Shown one piece after another: positions 1 through 9,619 of a stretch of DNA of 9,619 nucleotides. Every line of letters starts with the position of its first letter. The first letter of the stretch is position 1. The stretch is taken from NCBI GenBank assembly GCA_030618495.1, contig JAUXDE010000067.1, positions 1 through 9,619 of the forward strand, written 5' to 3'. The notes beneath the pieces are model-generated. The model did no database searches and had not been told where the DNA came from. It saw only the letters and a program-made list of their open reading frames with translations. Source of the DNA: Clostridia bacterium (GTDB taxonomy: Bacteria > UBA6262 > WVXT01 > JAUXBS01). A program made the position numbers and the translations under genes.

Positions 1-123
1 TTTGTTATTAAGGCCATCACCGTCATAATCATACGTATCTGTATCGTAATCAACGACGTAAGGTATAGTTGCCGTGCTGTACTCTACTTCCCACTTGTCC
101 GGTAGTCCGTCACCGTCAGTATC
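1..123 (-). repeat. Duplicated TSP3 module, copy 2 (reaches window edge)
   Basis: This stretch aligns without gaps to 304-426, an offset of 303 bp or 101 codons. I count 8 differences in 123 bases, and positions 1-53 are identical. It encodes DTDGDGLPDKWEVEY, a linker STATIPYV, and DYDTDTYDYDGDG. Because it touches the edge, the repeat may continue outside the window. Confidence 0.9.
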
Positions 124-1743
124 GTTGTTATTGGGGTCTGTATCGTTAATGTATTCCTGAAGGTTTGTAAGTCCATCATCATCATAATCAGCATTAGCAT
201 CGGCAGTCGAAGGTTTAACGCTGTAATCCACTTCCCACTTGTCCGGCATGCCATCGCCATCGGTATCATTCAATTTGGGACTTGTCCCGGAATTGTATTC
301 TTCTTTGTTATTAAGGCCATCACCGTCATAATCATACGTATCTGTATCGTAATCAATAACGTAAGGTATGGTTGCCGTGCTGTACTCCACTTCCCATTTG
401 TCCGGCAGGCCGTCGCCGTCAGTATCTTCCTTCTTGGGGTCTGTTCCGTTTTCTTGCTCATCATAATTTGTCAGTCCATCATCATCTATGTCTTCCTTGT
501 CATCGGAAACACCATCATTGTCGGTATCCACATTAAGCGGGTTAGTTGAAGTCTTGTTAACTTCAAAGTCATCTTCCAGGTTATCCCCATCGGTATCAGA
601 ACTTGTCGGGACGCAGAAGTTTTCGTACTCCTGCAGATTATTCAAGCCATCAGTATCATCATTACCTGCGGGGTCGGATACACCGTACTTGGTTTCCCAG
701 TAATCGGGCATACCGTTTGCGTCCGAATCAACGAATTCATCTGCTCCGATATCAATCACACCGTCAATTCTTGTATCCCCATCAATATCAAAAGTTTCGG
801 TTACAGCAGTCCCGGCTTCTTTGCATCCGGAAACAGCCATTAAATGGTAATCATTTTTTCCTGTTAAAGGGTCAAGATGGAATTTTGGGTCAATAGAAAT
901 ATCTGAACCATCGTTAGAGATTGCATGGTAGTTGCCCCCGGAATTGTTCCATGTGTTGTTGGTGGAGAGAACCGGGTCTGCCCCTTCTTTGCCCCAGATT
1001 GCCCCCTGAAGACTTGTATTGTTCGCTATTAAATTGTTGGTAACCTCAGGATTTGAACTATCGCCAATAATGGTCAATGCCCCCGGGTCATCAGTCAATT
1101 CATTTTCAAATGAAAATATCGGGCGGTACCTTGAAGTTAATTTATTGATGTCCGTTGAATTATTAATAATCGTGTTGTTAATGATTTTTGGAGATGAATT
1201 GATTATTTTTATTCCCGCGCTTCCGTAGGGACTGACATTATCCGAAATCACATTATTGATGATTAATGTGGATGAGGTATTGGTGGATGATGAGCCTATC
1301 AGTATGCCATAAGAAATGTTTCCCTTTATGATGCAGTTCATAATTTTCGGATTGGAATCAGCTTCGTTTCCTATGGAGATGCCTCCGCCTTTTGTTGAAT
1401 CCCCGTACCCGTTTGTAATGGTGAATCCATCGAGCACTGCAGTGTTGTCCTCGTTGTTGTTTGCCGAAACGACCGAAGCCGGGGCGTTCTCGGTCCCGGT
1501 ACCTATTATCGTTGTATATTCGGGGCCTGACTGGCTTTTTATGATAACCCCGGGCTTCATTGTAATGTTTTCTACATATTCCCCGGCATTTACTTGAACC
1601 GTATCGCCGCTTACGGCATAATTTATTCCCAGCGAGATTGTGGGTTGATTAGTAGGAACGATTATTGGTGCTGCGCCACAAATATGTGATAAAAGAATAA
1701 TGAGCGCGCACAAGCTAATTGTTATTTTTGTAATTTTTTTCAT
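1..1743 (-). CDS. Partial right-handed beta-helix surface protein with choice-of-anchor-Q-like segment and TSP3-like calcium-binding repeats
   Basis: This frame is open for 581 codons from the ATG at 1743 to the window edge with no stop, so the C-terminus is missing. Residues 1 to about 24 form a signal peptide (MKKITKI, hydrophobic core, cut near CGA/A). Residues about 40-300 show beta-helix rungs: LDGFTITNGYG, GGGISIGN, repeated NN-I/V-I stretches, NPKIMNCIIKG and SPKIINNTII. Residues about 282-337 match choice-of-anchor Q proteins (DPKFHLDP, YHL, DIDGDTRIDG, DIGADEF). From about 338 to the edge it is a chain of Asp-rich TSP3-like units (DTDGDGLPDKWEV, DYDGDGLNN) expected to bind calcium and form a rigid stalk. 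It is probably secreted or surface-displayed; its ligand is unknown. It lies 26 bp after the LamG-like gene in an AT-rich gap with no evident Shine-Dalgarno, and is probably co-transcribed with it. The missing C-terminus may carry a sorting domain like that of the gene at 7380-9619. Confidence 0.9.
   Translation of the reverse strand, partial: MKKITKITISLCALIILLSHICGAAPIIVPTNQPTISLGINYAVSGDTVQVNAGEYVENITMKPGVIIKSQSGPEYTTIIGTGTENAPASVVSANNNEDNTAVLDGFTITNGYGDSTKGGGISIGNEADSNPKIMNCIIKGNISYGILIGSSSTNTSSTLIINNVISDNVSPYGSAGIKIINSSPKIINNTIINNSTDINKLTSRYRPIFSFENELTDDPGALTIIGDSSNPEVTNNLIANNTSLQGAIWGKEGADPVLSTNNTWNNSGGNYHAISNDGSDISIDPKFHLDPLTGKNDYHLMAVSGCKEAGTAVTETFDIDGDTRIDGVIDIGADEFVDSDANGMPDYWETKYGVSDPAGNDDTDGLNNLQEYENFCVPTSSDTDGDNLEDDFEVNKTSTNPLNVDTDNDGVSDDKEDIDDDGLTNYDEQENGTDPKKEDTDGDGLPDKWEVEYSTATIPYVIDYDTDTYDYDGDGLNNKEEYNSGTSPKLNDTDGDGMPDKWEVDYSVKPSTADANADYDDDGLTNLQEYINDTDPNNNDTDGDGLPDKWEVEYSTATIPYVVDYDTDTYDYDGDGLNNK
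304..426 (-). repeat. Duplicated TSP3 module, copy 1
   Basis: This is the partner of the copy at 1-123. Seven of the eight nucleotide differences are synonymous and one changes Val to Ile. A third, more diverged unit with the DKWEV core lies between them (core at 231-246; the other two cores are at 87-102 and 390-405). The spacing therefore alternates between 53 and 48 codons, giving a super-repeat of 101 codons. Confidence 0.9.
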
Positions 1744-2844: not shown

Positions 2845-3093
2845 CTATTTGTTATTTTTACTCTTATATCCTGACACCGATTTTGCTTTTTTTAGTGATT
2901 TAAACTTGCTTGAAGATATCTTTGACAGGTCTTTTATTAAAAATTTCATCTCATCGCTGTCCAGTTTTGAAATACTGCCGAAACTGGCAATTACACGCTG
3001 CCTGGTCTTGCCGTTAACGCGGTAGTTTTCCACCAGGCGGAGGTACTGATACTGCCTGCCATTTTGAATGAATTTGTGAACTCTGAAAAACAT
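2845..3093 (-). CDS. Solo N-terminal domain of an IS1634-type transposase (relic or domesticated)
   Basis: An 82-residue protein whose first 50 or so residues match the start of IS1634-type transposases: MFFRVHKFIQNGRQYQYLRL, LVENYRVNGKTRQRVIASFG, then a short SKLD segment. In the full transposase this small beta-rich segment precedes several hundred residues carrying the DDE catalytic core. Here the protein ends after a Lys/Ser-rich tail (SKFKSLKKAKS, YKSKNNK) with a clean stop and no catalytic part. The next gene begins only 76 bp beyond, so there is no room for the rest of a transposase. It has its own strong promoter and no leader in which a Shine-Dalgarno could sit. The basic tail and origin suggest nucleic-acid binding, but this is inference. 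It could be a decaying insertion-sequence remnant or a retained small regulator. Confidence 0.72.
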   Translation of the reverse strand: MFFRVHKFIQNGRQYQYLRLVENYRVNGKTRQRVIASFGSISKLDSDEMKFLIKDLSKISSSKFKSLKKAKSVSGYKSKNNK

Positions 3094-3099
3094 GACAAA

Positions 3100-3128
3100 A
3101 ATATACCATTTTTAACATCACAAGTCAA
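3100..3128 (-). promoter_or_regulatory. Sigma70-type promoter of the solo transposase-domain gene; predicts a leaderless mRNA
   Basis: On the minus strand a -35 box TTGACT (3123-3128) and a -10 box TATATT (3100-3105) are separated by exactly 17 bp. Each hexamer differs from consensus at one base. Only 6 bases (TTTGTC) lie between the -10 box and the ATG at 3093, so transcription should begin at or within a base or two of the start codon. Confidence 0.7.
3107..3122 (-). repeat. 16-bp motif copy in the promoter spacer
   Basis: The minus strand reads TGTGATGTTAAAAATG. It occupies 16 of the 17 spacer positions between the -35 and -10 boxes. It matches the copy at 3152-3167 at 15 of 16 positions in the same orientation, with a 45-bp offset. 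A protein bound here would cover the promoter. Confidence 0.75.
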
Positions 3129-3148
3129 GGAAAATATGACGATAAAGC

Positions 3149-3186
3149 AAACATTTTTAACACCACATATTGCGTGTTAAATGTTT
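3149..3186. repeat. Inverted repeat holding the second 16-bp motif copy and a third, inverted one
   Basis: The left arm at 3149-3163 (AAACATTTTTAACAC) pairs with the right arm at 3174-3186 (GTGTTAAATGTTT) across a 10-base loop, with a 2-base bulge on the left. The left arm contains most of the second copy of the promoter-spacer motif (3152-3167); the right arm is a shortened inverted copy. It sits 27 bp after the stop codon of the solute-binding protein gene. It could be an operator dyad, an insertion-sequence end, or a weak AT-rich terminator. The minus-strand exit side (TTTGCTTTAT) lacks a clean T-tract. Confidence 0.6.
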
Positions 3187-3213
3187 TTTATTCTGAAAGA
3201 TTGTGAATTTCTG

Positions 3214-4869
3214 TTATCTTGTATATCTCTGGAGGGTTTCCGGAATGTACCACTTGATGAAATTATAGCCGATTCCGATAGGTGCAACGGCTATGCCGTG
3301 TATCCTGCTGCTTACGACAGGCAGGGCGTCATCAACGTAAAGGAATGTATATGGCTGGTCCTCGGCAATCAGTTCATGGATTTTCTGATATATTTTCTTC
3401 CTTTTCTCTTTGGCGAAGGTTTCCCTCCCCTTGATTATCAGCCTGTCCACTTCGGGGTTGCTGTAGCTGACGAAATTGTATTGTCCTTTGTCTATCTGGG
3501 AGGAATGCCATATGCTGTAGCAGTCGGGGTCTCTTGACAGGCTCCAGCCGATTATTAAGGCTTCAAACCTCTTGTTGTGAATGTATTCATTAATAAAAGC
3601 GCTCCATTCAATGATACGGATGTTTACCTTTATCCCTATTTTCTTCAAATTTGACTGTATCATCGTGGCGCTTAATTCCCGTTTCTTGTTGCCCTGATTG
3701 GTCATGAGGGTGAATTCAAAGTTGTTTCCGTCCCTGTCAAGCAAACCGTCAGCGTCTGTATCCTTCCACCCGCATTCTTCAAGTAATTTCTTAGCTTTAT
3801 TTGGATTGTACTCATATCTTCTTACATTTGGGTTGTATGCCCAGGATTGTTTTGGAAACGGTCCCGTACATATACTACCCAGCCCGAGCAGTATACCGTC
3901 AATTATTTCCTGCTTGTTGATTGCATAGGTCAGCGCCTGCCGCACCTTCTTTTCTTTAAAAAGGTGGAAGTTGAGGTTATACCCGAGATACGTGAAGCCG
4001 AAGCCCGGGTACCTGAATTTATTATATGCCTTGGTGAAGCCGCTGTCGCCGGTTTCCTTTGTGTACTGGTCAGGGGTAAGGCCCATTGAGTCAATCGATC
4101 CCTTTCTTAATTCCATGAACTGGACCGCCTGGTCAGGCACGATTCTGTAAATTATCCTGTCGATGCGCGGCCTTCCTTCAAAATAATCAGGATTAGCCTC
4201 AAGGATTATCTTGTCGTCGGTTTTCCATTCAATAAACCTGTAGGGCCCCGTTCCCGTGGGGTTCCTGTTTGCGGGATGTTTGTTGAAGCCGCCTTTCTCA
4301 AATATATGTTTTGGTATTATTCCCATACCCCAGCTTTCCACGGCAGGTGAAAAGGGCTTTGAGTAGGTTATTTTTATCGTGTAATCGTCAAGGATTTCAA
4401 ATTTCTTTACCAGCAGGTACTTGGAAGCGTAGGGGGTAATCACTTCGGGATCAATTAGTTTTTCATAGGTGAATTTGACGTCCCGCGCCGTAAAGGGAAC
4501 GCCGTCGTGCCATTTCACGTTTTTTCTTAAATGGAACCTCAGTTCCAGCCCGTCGTCAGAGACTTCCCATGATTGGGCGAGGTCCCCTACAAGAACGATG
4601 TCCTTGTCGTACTTCACGAGGCCGTTATACACGTAGCCGTTGATGTCTCCCGAAGCGCTGTCCGTCGCAAGTATCGGGTTTAAATAACTGGCATCCCCTA
4701 TGGAAGCTTCAATATATGTGTCGCCGCAGACGGGTTCTGTGGAAATAGCGGAGTTATCCTTTCCGGGAGGGCTGCCTTTGCAGCAGCATAAAGCGGCGGC
4801 AAGGATAAAAGTCAGGAACAGGACGGACTTATTCTCTTTTATAAGACGGTTTTTTGAATAATTTATCAT
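3214..4869 (-). CDS. ABC transporter substrate-binding protein, family 5 (peptide/nickel/opine type)
   Basis: A 551-residue extracytoplasmic solute-binding protein, full length for the SBP_bac_5 family. These capture oligopeptides or similar solutes and deliver them to a DppBC/OppBC-type permease. Visible family features in order: YNGLVKYDKD and LAQSWEVSDDGLE (about 80-110), the signature KWHDGVPFTARDVKFTYEKL (119-138), GTGPYRFIEW, EANPDYFEGRP, VRQALTYAINKQEII, AKKLLEECGWKDTDADG and a C-terminal IHGIAVAPIGI. The export signal is KNRLIKENKS followed by VLFLTFILAAAL and a Cys triplet at residues 28-30. It looks like a lipoprotein signal, but the residue before the first Cys is Leu, so the lipobox is not canonical. 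The ATG is the only sensible start; it overlaps the LolA-like gene by 41 bp with a weak GGGA upstream, consistent with translational coupling. No permease or ATPase gene lies in the window, and the substrate cannot be told. Confidence 0.93.
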   Translation of the reverse strand: MINYSKNRLIKENKSVLFLTFILAAALCCCKGSPPGKDNSAISTEPVCGDTYIEASIGDASYLNPILATDSASGDINGYVYNGLVKYDKDIVLVGDLAQSWEVSDDGLELRFHLRKNVKWHDGVPFTARDVKFTYEKLIDPEVITPYASKYLLVKKFEILDDYTIKITYSKPFSPAVESWGMGIIPKHIFEKGGFNKHPANRNPTGTGPYRFIEWKTDDKIILEANPDYFEGRPRIDRIIYRIVPDQAVQFMELRKGSIDSMGLTPDQYTKETGDSGFTKAYNKFRYPGFGFTYLGYNLNFHLFKEKKVRQALTYAINKQEIIDGILLGLGSICTGPFPKQSWAYNPNVRRYEYNPNKAKKLLEECGWKDTDADGLLDRDGNNFEFTLMTNQGNKKRELSATMIQSNLKKIGIKVNIRIIEWSAFINEYIHNKRFEALIIGWSLSRDPDCYSIWHSSQIDKGQYNFVSYSNPEVDRLIIKGRETFAKEKRKKIYQKIHELIAEDQPYTFLYVDDALPVVSSRIHGIAVAPIGIGYNFIKWYIPETLQRYTR

Positions 4870-5521
4870 TTAATCCCACGTTTAACTTTAAATTCTCGTA
4901 TTGAGTTGACTGCATGATGTTTCCGTCCTTATCGTAGAAAATGAATTTCAAGAGAAGCATTCTTTCCTTGTCAATCCATACCAGTTCCCTTGCGATTAAA
5001 TCAGTTTTATCAAGGTCTTTTGAAACCAGTTCTATAACAAGGGCTTCGTCGCCGTCAAGTTTCTCTTCCCTCAGTATTCTGGATTCAAAGGATTCAAGGT
5101 TTTCAATATGCATGTCAAGGAAGTAGTTCCCGGCGGACTCGTTCACGGTAAATCCGTTCAGCCCGCGTACCCTCTTGTTGCGCGGGTCAAGGCTGAAAGT
5201 AAAAAGCGAAACAAGGCCTCTACCCGCCTTGACTTTAACCTTCCCGTTCCTGTAGATAAGAACAGTACCTATGTTCTTATCCCCGCCGATAATATCCATT
5301 CTGACCTTTTCAGGTTTTTTGTAGTAGAAATCATACACATAACGTTCGGATTCGCCGTCCTTTGCCTGGTAGTCCCTCATAATACAGGCGAAATCATTGA
5401 TTTCGTTGAATCTTTGGCGCATCTCAATAAACAGCTGCTTTACGTTGTAAGCGTATGCGGAATTTGCGATAAGCAGCAGGACAGCGCAGAGAATAATTAG
5501 TTTTATATAACTTTTTTTCAT
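4829..5521 (-). CDS. LolA-like periplasmic protein (outer-membrane lipoprotein-sorting-like)
   Basis: A 230-residue exported protein. Residues 1-24 are a standard signal peptide (MKKSYIKLIIL, cut after NSAYA). The mature part follows the LolA/LppX-type half-barrel pattern: a first amphipathic helix (KQLFIEMRQRFNEINDF), strands YVYDFYYKKPEKVRMDI and GTVLIYRNGKVKVK, then ALVIELVSKD, RELVWIDKERMLLLKFIFYD, and a final VGLNDKLFKKP resembling the usual family ending. Proteins of this fold carry lipids or lipoproteins across the periplasm, or act as secreted lipid-binding factors. Sequence identity inside the fold is low, so it should not be called LolA proper. The start codon follows the Memo stop codon directly (TAA then ATG) with no good Shine-Dalgarno, so translation probably depends on ribosomes finishing Memo. 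The 3' end overlaps the solute-binding protein gene by 41 bp. Confidence 0.75.
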   Translation of the reverse strand: MKKSYIKLIILCAVLLLIANSAYAYNVKQLFIEMRQRFNEINDFACIMRDYQAKDGESERYVYDFYYKKPEKVRMDIIGGDKNIGTVLIYRNGKVKVKAGRGLVSLFTFSLDPRNKRVRGLNGFTVNESAGNYFLDMHIENLESFESRILREEKLDGDEALVIELVSKDLDKTDLIARELVWIDKERMLLLKFIFYDKDGNIMQSTQYENLKLNVGLNDKLFKKPSYKRE

Positions 5522-6331
5522 TTATTTAACCAGTATGCCGGCATAACCCACGACTGACGAGTAATCCCCGGATGAGTCCCCGCTCGTGTTGTAAAAGACG
5601 AGTTCCGCTTTCTTTGCCCCGAGCGATTTTGCCGCAAACAGCATAACAGCTGCCGGCCCCGACCCGCACATTGATATGTTGTTAACGGAAACTGTATCAA
5701 GCAGTCCTTCGGGGTCCAGCTCTACTATTTTGTCAATGGCGAGATTATCCTTTTCCTTTGCCGTTTCAACGGATTCGTAATGGCTCATGTCCGAAGAGGC
5801 AATTATCAGCGCTTTGACGGAAGAGTCAAGTGAATCAGCTATTGCCTTGCCTATTGCCCTGCAGGTTTTAGCGCTGTAATCCCTCATGCAGATAGGAACG
5901 ATACTGAATTTCTTCCTGAAATATTGTATAAAGGGGAGCTGTGTTTCCAGTGAATGTTCGTACGCATGGGCGTTCTCATCATCCTTAATCAAGTTTTTGG
6001 CGTTTGACAGGATTGACCTGGCAAGTTTGCTGTTTATCCTGACATTGCCGTTCGGCATGGACCAGTAACCTTCGGTCATGATTGCCGTATCAGTTCCCAT
6101 CCCCGAGTGGTTTGGGCCCAGTATTATGAATACGTCGGGAAGTTTCACCCTTGAATACACAGCGCCGGCCGCCTTTCCCGAGTACATGAACCCGGCATGA
6201 GGGGCGACTATTCCCAGGGCTGACTCTTTCTTTGCGTCCTTTACGATATATTGTTCAACGTCTTTCTTCAGTTTCTCTGGGTCCGAAGGGTAGAACCTGC
6301 CTGCCTGGGCAGGATTCCTTGTAACGCTCAT
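5522..6331 (-). CDS. amrB: Memo-family metalloprotein (AmmeMemoRadiSam system protein B)
   Basis: A 269-residue cytoplasmic protein of the MEMO1 family, about the usual length. The fold is related to extradiol dioxygenases and LigB, and human MEMO1 binds metal through two His and one Cys. Counting from the chosen start, the equivalents are H45 (APHAGFMYSG), H75 (LGPNHSG) and C222 (MCGSGPAA). D181 and H184 (SSDMSHY), H126 and E129 (EHSLETQLPF) and the N-terminal NPAQAGRFYP signature are also present, so the site looks intact. The start at 6331 is supported by GGGAGG six bases upstream and by the family N-terminus. An in-frame ATG at 6361 adds ten unlike residues and falls inside the -10 box. 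It is the first gene of an operon with the LolA-like and solute-binding protein genes. The usual partners, AMMECR1 and a radical-SAM enzyme, are not in the window. The reaction in bacteria is not settled. Confidence 0.93.
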   Translation of the reverse strand: MSVTRNPAQAGRFYPSDPEKLKKDVEQYIVKDAKKESALGIVAPHAGFMYSGKAAGAVYSRVKLPDVFIILGPNHSGMGTDTAIMTEGYWSMPNGNVRINSKLARSILSNAKNLIKDDENAHAYEHSLETQLPFIQYFRKKFSIVPICMRDYSAKTCRAIGKAIADSLDSSVKALIIASSDMSHYESVETAKEKDNLAIDKIVELDPEGLLDTVSVNNISMCGSGPAAVMLFAAKSLGAKKAELVFYNTSGDSSGDYSSVVGYAGILVK

Positions 6332-6337
6332 GCAGTG

Positions 6338-6343
6338 CCTCCC
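6338..6343 (-). promoter_or_regulatory. Shine-Dalgarno that sets the Memo start
   Basis: The minus strand reads GGGAGG, then CACTGC, then ATG. The six-base spacing is close to ideal and fixes the start at 6331 instead of the upstream in-frame ATG at 6361. Confidence 0.88.
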
Positions 6344-6360
6344 GGTTCTTTCATGTATCA

Positions 6361-6389
6361 ATTATAGATGTTTTCATTCTAAATGTAAA
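6361..6389 (-). promoter_or_regulatory. Sigma70-type promoter of the Memo / LolA-like / solute-binding protein operon
   Basis: The minus strand has TTTACA (6384-6389), a 17-bp spacer and a perfect TATAAT (6361-6366). Transcription should begin near 6354, giving a leader of about 20-25 bases that includes the Shine-Dalgarno. It lies just downstream of the terminator of the preceding unit, so the operon is transcriptionally separate. Confidence 0.82.
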
Positions 6390-6446: not shown

Positions 6447-7370
6447 TTAAAACTTGAAACTTATTGAAATTCTATGGGTGCTTCCAAGAGCCCCGTACAT
6501 GAGCCAGCCATAGTCAATTGACGCATTATCAAAAATCAACCCGCCTCCAAAAGAAAGGCTTGAAAAAGCATCTTGAGAGGGGACCATTTGATAGCCCGCC
6601 CTGATGGAGTAATTTTGAATCCTAAATTCGCTTCCGGTATTCAGTACGAACGTATCAAGGGTCATGAAATTTATATCTGCGGCTACCGTGAGTAAGCCAT
6701 CCATTGTCCTGAAAGCAATTCCCGACCTGAAATTCATCGGTGAAGGATCGGCCTCATTGATAAACTTTATCTCTTGTCCGAAATTCTGCAAAGAAAACCC
6801 GATATTTAATGTTTGCGCCAGTTTAACGATAATCCCGACGTCTGCCTGGTAAGCTTCAGCGCTTTCATTCTCGATTGTCATGCTGAGTATCCTTCCGCTT
6901 ATACCGACAGAAAGCTTGCCGGTAAGTTTCTGGCTGTAACTGATTGTTGCCGCCATGTCCGACGCCCCGTAAGTCCCCTCGTCAACCAAACTACCCTCAT
7001 TGTCCCTGTAAGCTATTTCTCCGGCATTAAGGAAGAAAAAGGAACCCCCTATAGCCATTGAATCGTTCAGTGGTAAGGCAACTGCCACATATTCATACCT
7101 GATTCCCTGAAGCCATTCGTTATGGGTAAATGTTATCTCTTTTTGGGGCATAAAGGCTATACTGGCTGGGTTATATGATAAAGCATTGGCGTCGTCCGTA
7201 ACCGCAGTGAAAGCTCCTCCCATGGCTGCCGGCCGAGCGCCCGGAGATATTCTCATAAACTGCGCCCCCGATGTGCCCGCGGCGTTATCAAATAAACCTG
7301 AATAAGATGAAGCAACCATTAAGCATAAGATTGATACGGTTAACGGGACTAGAAGTATTTTTCTGTACAT
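6447..7370 (-). CDS. PorV/PorQ-family outer-membrane beta-barrel protein
   Basis: A 307-residue outer-membrane protein. A signal peptide (MYRKILLVPLTVSILCLMV, cut near SSYS/G) is followed by the hallmark N-terminus of the PorV/PorQ (UPF0164, FadL-like) family: AGTSGAQFMRISPGARPAAM, GGAFTAVTDDANALSYNPA, then the strand EITFTHNEWLQGIRYEYVAV. Alternating amphipathic strands continue to the end, which is IDYGWL and a final aromatic RISISFKF typical of BAM-assembled barrels. In Bacteroidota, PorV shuttles type IX cargo after export and PorQ belongs to the attachment complex; in other phyla many paralogues of unknown job exist. Its gene follows a protein with a FlgD-Ig-like sorting-type domain by 9 bp, with overlapping stop and ribosome-binding signals, and a strong terminator follows it. 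This pairing supports a cargo-linked role, by inference. Which PorV-type subfamily it belongs to cannot be told by eye. Confidence 0.87.
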   Translation of the reverse strand: MYRKILLVPLTVSILCLMVASSYSGLFDNAAGTSGAQFMRISPGARPAAMGGAFTAVTDDANALSYNPASIAFMPQKEITFTHNEWLQGIRYEYVAVALPLNDSMAIGGSFFFLNAGEIAYRDNEGSLVDEGTYGASDMAATISYSQKLTGKLSVGISGRILSMTIENESAEAYQADVGIIVKLAQTLNIGFSLQNFGQEIKFINEADPSPMNFRSGIAFRTMDGLLTVAADINFMTLDTFVLNTGSEFRIQNYSIRAGYQMVPSQDAFSSLSFGGGLIFDNASIDYGWLMYGALGSTHRISISFKF

Positions 7371-7375
7371 GATAG

Positions 7376-7382
7376 CCTCCTA
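7376..7382 (-). promoter_or_regulatory. Shine-Dalgarno of the PorV-like gene overlapping the upstream stop codon
   Basis: The minus strand reads TAGGAGG, then CTATC... wait-free spacing of five bases, then ATG at 7370. The TAG is the stop codon of the preceding gene (7380-7382), so translation of the two genes is probably coupled. Confidence 0.88.
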
Positions 7383-9619
7383 TTTAATTATTGAAAATTT
7401 CCCTGTAGTGTCGCTGCCGTCTTCGTCCTTAATTGCATAAATATAGACTCCACTTGCTGCTTTGTCACCGGAATCATTAACGGTTATATCCCATGTCATA
7501 GATGACGATTCTTCGGTATTTTTGAATACTCTTATGACTTTACCGGCAATATTGTGAATGGTTAGTGTTGTTTCAGGTTCTCTGCAGACGTTGCTAAAAG
7601 TTATGGAATCGGCGTCGAATTTTCCGCCTGTTCCCGGCTTGTATGGGTTAGGGTAAACGATAACATTACTTGAATTACTTGGAGCCCCCATTGACATGAA
7701 TACCGAGAAATGATTCACATTTACAGAAACACAATTAACCGTTTCGTCAACGACATAGTTATCCAATTCATCCCATTCCTGATTTAACTCGTTAACGTGG
7801 TTTACTCGCAGGTATCTTTCCTTCAAAGGAGGCGAAATGCCGTCAATAAATCCATCGTTATCACTATCATCATAATAATAGCTTATTTTAACATTACCGT
7901 TAAAAACCTCCACTCTTTCTGAGGTTGCTATGTCATATGCATTGATTTCTACGAGGCTTCCAGCTATTCTGTAACCGGCGCCGCCTGCGGCATCGTGCTT
8001 TCTGTTTGCTTCAACAATTAAAGCAGAGTCAATTTCTCTCGGGTTATCTATGGGAGTTATGGTAATTGATATTGCCACATCCACATCAAAAGTGCTGCCG
8101 GGAACGTCAACCTTTATTTTATCATTCGTCCCCCCTACAATAATTCCGCCTTCGGTACTATCAAGGTGTTTACTGGATGCGGTGACCCAGACATAAGCGG
8201 GAGAACTTTCTTTTTCTTCATTGGACACGACAAGTTTGAATTTATAGTTTCCTTTTATATTGGGTGTAAATGTGGGATTGACTGTTGTTGTTCCTGCCAG
8301 TGTTATTACCGCGGGGCCGGATACAAAACTCCATAGATATGAGATTTCTCCGCCTTTGGGGTCATAACTCTGCTCCCCGTCAAGCGTAACCAGGTTTCCT
8401 ACGAGTACAAATACGTCATTCCCGGCGACTGCCTGCGGTATATCCGGAATTTCTTCGGGGAAGAGCCCGCCGAGGTCTCCTGTCTCGTTTACGAAGTAAT
8501 CTTCAAGTAACGTCAGGATATCAACGGGGACGTTGTCGAACCATGCTGAAAGATTTATGTAGTCATCAGGGTATACCGGGGTGTATTTATTCGAGTATTT
8601 GAAATCCTGGTGAATAGTAATGAAGAAGTTACTAATTTCATCAACAGCGTCGAGAAAATATGTGTCGTCACTTCCCTCGTACGCGATTTTAGAAACAAAT
8701 TCGCTAACATCCGAAAAATAACCGGTAAACGTTGTTATATCTTCCCCTATATCCTTTATTACTTGCTCTCCGTCCAATCCGTGGCTTGCAACTGTTTTTA
8801 ACTTTAGAAAGTCCGGGTTGGAAGCTCTAAGGGCGTTTATGTAATCCTCTATCTCAACACAACCGTCAAAATTCAGCGTATTCGGATTAAGACTTAAATC
8901 ATACGGGAAATTGGCGAAGTCCTCATCAGCCCCGGTGTTGGATATCATTCCGATGATAGTCCCGTAGAAATCAAGCATAGGTTTAATCTCAACAATCGCC
9001 CATGATGGAATCGTTAAAGGAACAATATCGTCATTTATGTTCACCACATAAGGAAACTGGTCATCCTTTGTATACTTTGCAACCATTGTGTATAAAAACG
9101 AGTGGTCAAGTTCTGCAATCCTGTCTACATAGTGTCTTGCGGAGTCTACTGTATTATTCATTTCCCCGGTAGTTTCAAAGAAACTAATGAAATCACCAGC
9201 TTCAAATTCATCAAATGCTTCAGGCAGTTTATCAGAGAACGAAACGCTGACTCTATATAACTCAATTATTGCCAGGGTCATAAGGGCTTTAGAATCATTC
9301 GGGTCAATGACCAGTTCAGCCTCGCATACGGCCTCTATTTCATCAAATCGCGACTGTATTGTATCAGTGCTCAACAGGACATTAAATGTACCGTAGCTGT
9401 GCGGTTCAAGCGCATCAACGATTTCCTGTATAAGCCCTTCCGGGAAAAGTCCTGCAAACGTATAACTTGACCTTTCAACAATGGACGGCAGGGAGTAATA
9501 CTCAACTACAAGTTTAGTTAAGTCATCAGGCGTAGTTTCAAGCCACGCAATAGGGCATATTGTCTTATCCCCGAAAGGATATGATTTGCCGTCTACCAGC
9601 TCGCTTAATATGTTAACCT
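7380..9619 (-). CDS. Partial large surface protein: helical N-region, PKD-like domain, FlgD-Ig-like (type IX-like) C-terminal domain
   Basis: The frame is open from the window edge to the TAG at 7380: 745 residues are visible and the true start lies outside. A TTG at 9374 is not the start, because 81 further in-frame codons upstream read as normal protein. Residues about 1-390 are mostly helical with a TPR-like stretch (AELVIDPNDSKALMTLAIIE) and an internal duplication. Residues about 395-481 are a PKD-like beta-sandwich (AVAGNDVFVLVGNLVTLDG, SYDPKGGEISYLWSF, GNYKFKLVVSN). Then comes a beta-rich region with a possible calcium loop (DDSDNDGFIDG) and VNVNHFSVFM. The last 91 residues are a FlgD-Ig-like C-terminal domain: VYPNPYKPG, TLTIHNIAGKVIRVF, SGVYIYAIKD, GKFSIIK. 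In Bacteroidota such tails direct type IX secretion. The function of the body is unknown. The PorV-like gene follows 9 bp downstream, which fits a secreted cargo. Confidence 0.88.
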   Translation of the reverse strand, partial: VNILSELVDGKSYPFGDKTICPIAWLETTPDDLTKLVVEYYSLPSIVERSSYTFAGLFPEGLIQEIVDALEPHSYGTFNVLLSTDTIQSRFDEIEAVCEAELVIDPNDSKALMTLAIIELYRVSVSFSDKLPEAFDEFEAGDFISFFETTGEMNNTVDSARHYVDRIAELDHSFLYTMVAKYTKDDQFPYVVNINDDIVPLTIPSWAIVEIKPMLDFYGTIIGMISNTGADEDFANFPYDLSLNPNTLNFDGCVEIEDYINALRASNPDFLKLKTVASHGLDGEQVIKDIGEDITTFTGYFSDVSEFVSKIAYEGSDDTYFLDAVDEISNFFITIHQDFKYSNKYTPVYPDDYINLSAWFDNVPVDILTLLEDYFVNETGDLGGLFPEEIPDIPQAVAGNDVFVLVGNLVTLDGEQSYDPKGGEISYLWSFVSGPAVITLAGTTTVNPTFTPNIKGNYKFKLVVSNEEKESSPAYVWVTASSKHLDSTEGGIIVGGTNDKIKVDVPGSTFDVDVAISITITPIDNPREIDSALIVEANRKHDAAGGAGYRIAGSLVEINAYDIATSERVEVFNGNVKISYYYDDSDNDGFIDGISPPLKERYLRVNHVNELNQEWDELDNYVVDETVNCVSVNVNHFSVFMSMGAPSNSSNVIVYPNPYKPGTGGKFDADSITFSNVCREPETTLTIHNIAGKVIRVFKNTEESSSMTWDITVNDSGDKAASGVYIYAIKDEDGSDTTGKFSIIK

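Follow-up and report, generated by a model that had tools for sequence, protein, structure and literature searches.

Transposon proteins can be turned into regulators, and TldR, which is derived from TnpB, is one example. Regulatory proteins are also found within insertion sequences (IS) themselves, and for IS1 InsA, the IS2 14-kDa protein, and the IS50 inhibitor it has been proposed that these truncated transposases act on the promoter or the end of the IS (PMC11677980). The IS1634 family, which was separated from the IS4 family, has ends of the type C-----YT, generates 5–6 bp duplications, and is rare, being present in approximately 2% of genomes (PMC2266710). A literature search, for which subscription papers were mostly out of reach, turned up no report of an IS1634 N-terminal domain that stands alone or has been domesticated. 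In this work, we analysed a stretch of 9,619 nucleotides, designated the window, which carries a gene for such a domain, and we consider it somewhat better than an even chance that this gene encodes an exapted IS1634 N-terminal DNA-binding domain, a putative autorepressor at the head of a cassette of secreted-protein genes.

The stand-alone gene and its product

The gene occupies positions 2845–3093 of the minus strand and occurs once in the genome of the window (G000). As the initial annotation had stated, it is an intact open reading frame (ORF) of 82 codons with an ATG start and a TAG stop, and its proposed relationship to the N-terminus of IS1634-type transposases was confirmed by alignment with the first approximately 70 residues of three full-length proteins (L002, L003, and L006; 36–38% identity). 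L006 and another full-length protein, L007, belong to NF033559 (transpos_IS1634; E 5.5e-118 and 2.7e-119, respectively), and both contain the DDE domain PF01609. The 82-aa ORF alone has no match in Pfam and nothing meaningful in NCBIfam, because the NF033559 model starts only at about residue 26 of the transposase. The stop codon is separated from the next ORF by only 76 bp, so that, as had been noted, there is no room for the DDE core at this position, and NF033559 has no match elsewhere in G000. The same model detected no IS1634 transposase in the relatives G001–G005 or in G060, the genome that holds the second copy described below. The outer end of IS1634 elements, which can be made out by eye in a number of full-length members, is not apparent upstream of either copy, and the right end was not seen; the ends of this family are poorly conserved.

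The structure of the domain, whose prediction had been suggested initially, was modelled with AlphaFold2 from six sequences. The predicted topology is β-β-β-α (strands 2–10, 13–26, and 29–40, helix 46–57), with a pLDDT of about 90 for residues 1–50 and a disordered tail. The first matches in Foldseek were integrase arm-type DNA-binding domains with weak E values of 0.3–0.65, the best being 3jtz (E 0.3), and VIA gave Z-scores of 3.1 for 3jtz, 2.7 for the AP2 structure 6sy0, and less than 5 for all chains; neither fold search gave a significant match. A search by sequence for relatives of solved structure returned only de novo coiled coils aligned to the helix (E 1.3e-4), which were discarded as not meaningful. 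The likeness to arm- or AP2-type domains is weak, and the predicted fold is compatible with DNA binding and no more.

A second copy and the distribution of the domain

A second stand-alone copy was found on another metagenomic contig (L005, positions 716–1000). It encodes 94 aa, is 74% identical over residues 1–77, likewise lacks the core, and precedes the same two secreted-protein genes. The gene of the window is therefore not a unique truncation, which had been named as a finding that would speak against domestication. The basic tail is present as described, but it is not new to this copy: L005 has it with hardly any change, and residues 55–69 are identical. The expectation that many stand-alone homologues exist was not borne out: searches with peptide patterns over 84,980 species genomes, which detect close relatives only, and with a profile over 386 genomes yielded two stand-alone copies in total. 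The N-terminal domain was matched in 32 of the 386 genomes, and a wide occurrence of stand-alone domains was rejected, as the other short matches mostly had core remnants or stops or were located near contig ends. No further stand-alone copy was seen in Fibrobacterota relatives of G060. Carriage by phages or plasmids was also rejected, as the protein had no matches on them and both the second protein of the cassette and the promoter pattern were absent from the viral contigs searched.

DNA homology between the two loci begins at window position 3167 (L005 position 642), exactly where the distal repeat described below begins, and continues for more than 3 kb, whereas upstream of this position L005 has a transposase-like fragment in place of the SBP (SBP_bac_5) gene; the two copies therefore share one conserved cassette in differing surroundings. 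At positions 48–491 (minus strand) of L005, near the contig end and upstream of the second stand-alone gene, lies a divergent transposase-like ORF of 147 aa with a zinc-ribbon-like N-terminus. The L005 contig was assigned to the Fibrobacterota bin G060, which has no Memo homologue; such a homologue is present in all six genomes of the phylum of the window that were examined. The tetranucleotide profile of L005 is slightly closer to G000 (0.64) than to G060 (0.61), and all other usable contigs of G060 that were tested behave otherwise. For these reasons, either L005 was placed in the wrong bin or the cassette was acquired by transfer.

Genomic context and downstream genes

Positions 3214–6361 of the window carry Memo-like, LolA/DUF1571-like, and SBP_bac_5 genes, and in G001, a genome of the same genus, the corresponding genes follow in the same order with 73% DNA identity up to window position 3213; in G004, Memo and SBP are likewise no more than about 6 kb apart. 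Beyond the SBP gene, G001 has approximately 470 bp without stand-alone gene or transposase, followed by a different CarboxypepD_reg protein. A full transposase at the syntenic locus of a close relative, the other finding that had been named as contrary to domestication, is thus absent in G001 and was ruled out there. As G001 keeps the gene order up to SBP and then diverges, the region beyond this gene is variable and the cassette is an accessory insertion. Homology to G001 ends at position 3213 and homology to L005 begins at 3167, leaving a 46-bp junction (3168–3213), between the conserved SBP gene and the cassette, that matches neither. In the same genus, the SBP gene is followed at L071 366–1382 by a gene for a different, repeat-containing protein of the CarboxypepD_reg type, and the position looks like a site at which secreted-protein genes are swapped. 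At the other end of the window (6447–9617), a PorV/UPF0164-like protein is encoded, as is a PKD protein whose C-terminal signal resembles that of type IX secretion; six genomes of the phylum were examined.

The cassette comprises, downstream of the stand-alone gene and on the same (minus) strand, a gene for a secreted protein with a CarboxypepD_reg domain (1770–2768), which is 77% identical in L005 and probably co-transcribed, and a third gene for a beta-helix/TSP3-repeat-like secreted protein (1–1743), which is cut by the contig end and has related DNA at L005 2043–5081. The gap between the first two genes is 76 bp in the window and 16 bp in L005. Because no promoter-like or terminator-like site was found within the 76 bp, transcription of the downstream genes probably starts at the promoter of the stand-alone gene; a weak promoter-like site (2774–2745) overlaps the start of the CarboxypepD_reg gene, which may have a separate promoter.

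Promoter and upstream repeats

The gene was initially credited with a strong promoter of its own. A promoter is indeed present at 3094–3128 (minus strand), with TTGACT (3128–3123), a 17-nt spacer, TATATT (3105–3100), and a TG preceding the −10 region (10 of 12 matches), but it is a legacy of the IS. The ATG follows the −10 region after 6 nt, so that the mRNA is probably leaderless. The same geometry recurs in L005 and among full-length IS1634 elements; L032, for example, combines the upstream motif at −73 and a TTGACA at −35 with a leaderless ATG.

The 110 bp upstream of the gene contain two 16-mers that differ by one mismatch, and an equally good direct repeat was obtained in none of 3000 shuffles. 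The distal repeat, TGTGGTGTTAAAAATG (3152–3167, minus strand), is located at −74 and corresponds to a conserved subterminal IS1634 motif, TGTRGTGYCAA, which, across 20 other IS1634-type upstream regions, occurs beyond −50 more often than expected by chance (combined p 4e-12). The proximal repeat, TGTGATGTTAAAAATG (3107–3122, minus strand), is located at −29 within the spacer between −35 and −10 and is a putative autorepression operator; a copy of the motif in the spacer is not enriched in the other IS1634 promoters (p 0.34), yet both of the stand-alone loci have one (p 0.015 and 0.003). Since IS1634 elements share the upstream motif, some of them with the same −73/−35 geometry, and the homology of the two loci begins exactly at this motif, the promoter is inherited from an IS1634 element rather than newly acquired. 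Just upstream, an inverted copy of the distal repeat forms the pair AAACATTTTTAACAC / GTGTTAAATGTTTTT (3149–3163 / 3174–3188; 10 nt apart), which was not seen in L005.

From the window to L005, both repeats show a T to C and an A to T change at the same two positions, each keeping its own G/A difference. Such parallel changes would be expected if the repeats co-evolved with one binding protein, two positions being thin evidence. Perfect matches to the repeats occur in the genome only at these two sites. Nine further sites with two mismatches, eight of them within ORFs, were dismissed as chance, and a regulon elsewhere in the genome was rejected with them; given this distribution, the protein looks like a local regulator.

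Selection on the reading frame

Comparison of the gene with its L005 counterpart by the NG86 method gave dN 0.163, dS 1.08, and a dN/dS ratio of approximately 0.15 (YN00, 0.41; LWL85, 0.19), and the ratio for the neighbouring gene is 0.20. Third codon positions hold 32 of the 54 differences (binomial P 8e-5). As few as 20 amino-acid changes were obtained in none of 5000 stop-free neutral simulations, and the reading frame stayed open in only 12% of neutral simulations. These computations support purifying selection at the protein level, in a comparison of two copies of which one comes from a contig of uncertain binning.

Proposed origin and alternative explanations

Retention under selection and the domestication that the initial annotation considered plausible are supported by the low dN/dS ratio and by the second stand-alone copy, which has kept the tail, the promoter, the operator-like repeats, and the genes behind them. 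Homology, loss of the core, and the lack of a detectable IS1634 transposase in the genome were likewise established by computation. According to the origin that we favour, an IS1634 element would have inserted upstream of genes for secreted proteins and would have been stripped of its catalytic core and its outer ends, leaving the subterminal motif, the promoter, and the N-terminal domain. The TGTGRTGTYAAAWATR repeats at −74 and −29 are probably the binding sites of the protein, which, when bound at −29, would be expected to block RNA polymerase, because this repeat lies between −35 and −10; the autoregulated promoter probably also sets the transcription of the CarboxypepD_reg and beta-helix genes. 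This binding, repression, and read-through are inferred. More tentatively, and with a probability well below even, the left end of IS1634 (motif, promoter, and DNA-binding domain) may constitute a self-contained, self-repressing transcription module that heads a secreted-protein cassette, travels with it from genome to genome, and gained its second operator after loss of the core.

The main rival, which we regard as unlikely, is that the host keeps the domain as a repressor of incoming IS1634 elements, the protein recognising the subterminal motif and either competing with the transposase or shutting off its promoter. The motif kept at −74 is the upstream motif of IS1634, such action is known for truncated transposases made from the 5′ portion of the gene (PMC11677980), and no IS1634 transposase was found in G000–G005 or G060. 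However, the family is rare in any case (PMC2266710; 32 of 386 genomes in our search), so that its absence says little, relatives without the stand-alone gene also lack IS1634, and a gene kept for immunity alone need not accompany the same downstream genes. Less probable is an ordinary relic of a dead IS, whose 5′ end was truncated and is open by chance. Other genomes commonly contain broken copies of IS1634, among them a decayed 5′ end in a Lentisphaerae genome (L008, 5001–5213) that loses its frame after about 34 residues, and the gene is missing in G001, but this reading is already disfavoured by the low dN/dS ratio, the excess of third-position differences, the rarity of open frames in neutral simulations, and the conservation of promoter and repeats. 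Least probable is that an IS-derived portable promoter drives the secreted-protein genes, with the short ORF mainly serving as a leader for leaderless transcription and translation, since the conserved promoter geometry, the close downstream ORF, and a gap free of promoter-like sites would agree with this, but a leader requires neither amino-acid-level purifying selection across domain and tail nor a second repeat in the spacer.

Comparison with known systems

There are few bacterial regulators whose origin from one specific IS transposase can be followed and that still carry the promoter and the binding motif of their ancestor. If the exaptation proposed here is correct, full-length relatives show the ancestral geometry, to which the putative spacer operator was added, and a DNA-binding role and a target motif are suggested for the N-terminal domain of IS1634 transposases, for which the literature searched gave none. 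A single small protein and a 75-bp piece of DNA would suffice to test the step from parasite to regulator directly.

The stand-alone gene has the N-terminal domain sequence in common with the IS1634 (IS1549) transposases of NF033559, and both its locus and the IS1634 elements have the upstream TGTRGTGYCAA motif and the leaderless TTGACA-17-TATNNT promoter geometry. Unlike these elements, the gene stands alone without DDE core or recognisable outer terminal repeat, its product has a unique tail, and its locus has an additional motif within the promoter spacer. By origin, it fits the class of truncated-transposase regulators represented by IS1 InsA, the IS2 14-kDa protein, and the IS50 inhibitor, as it corresponds to the 5′ region of a transposase gene and lacks the core. 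Those regulators are, however, encoded by live elements beside the transposase, whereas here no transposase is left, host genes follow, and repression is a prediction. The proposed conversion of a transposon protein into a regulator parallels that of the TldR proteins, RNA-guided transcription factors (PMC13418256), from which the protein described here differs in being unrelated, much smaller, and without an RNA guide.
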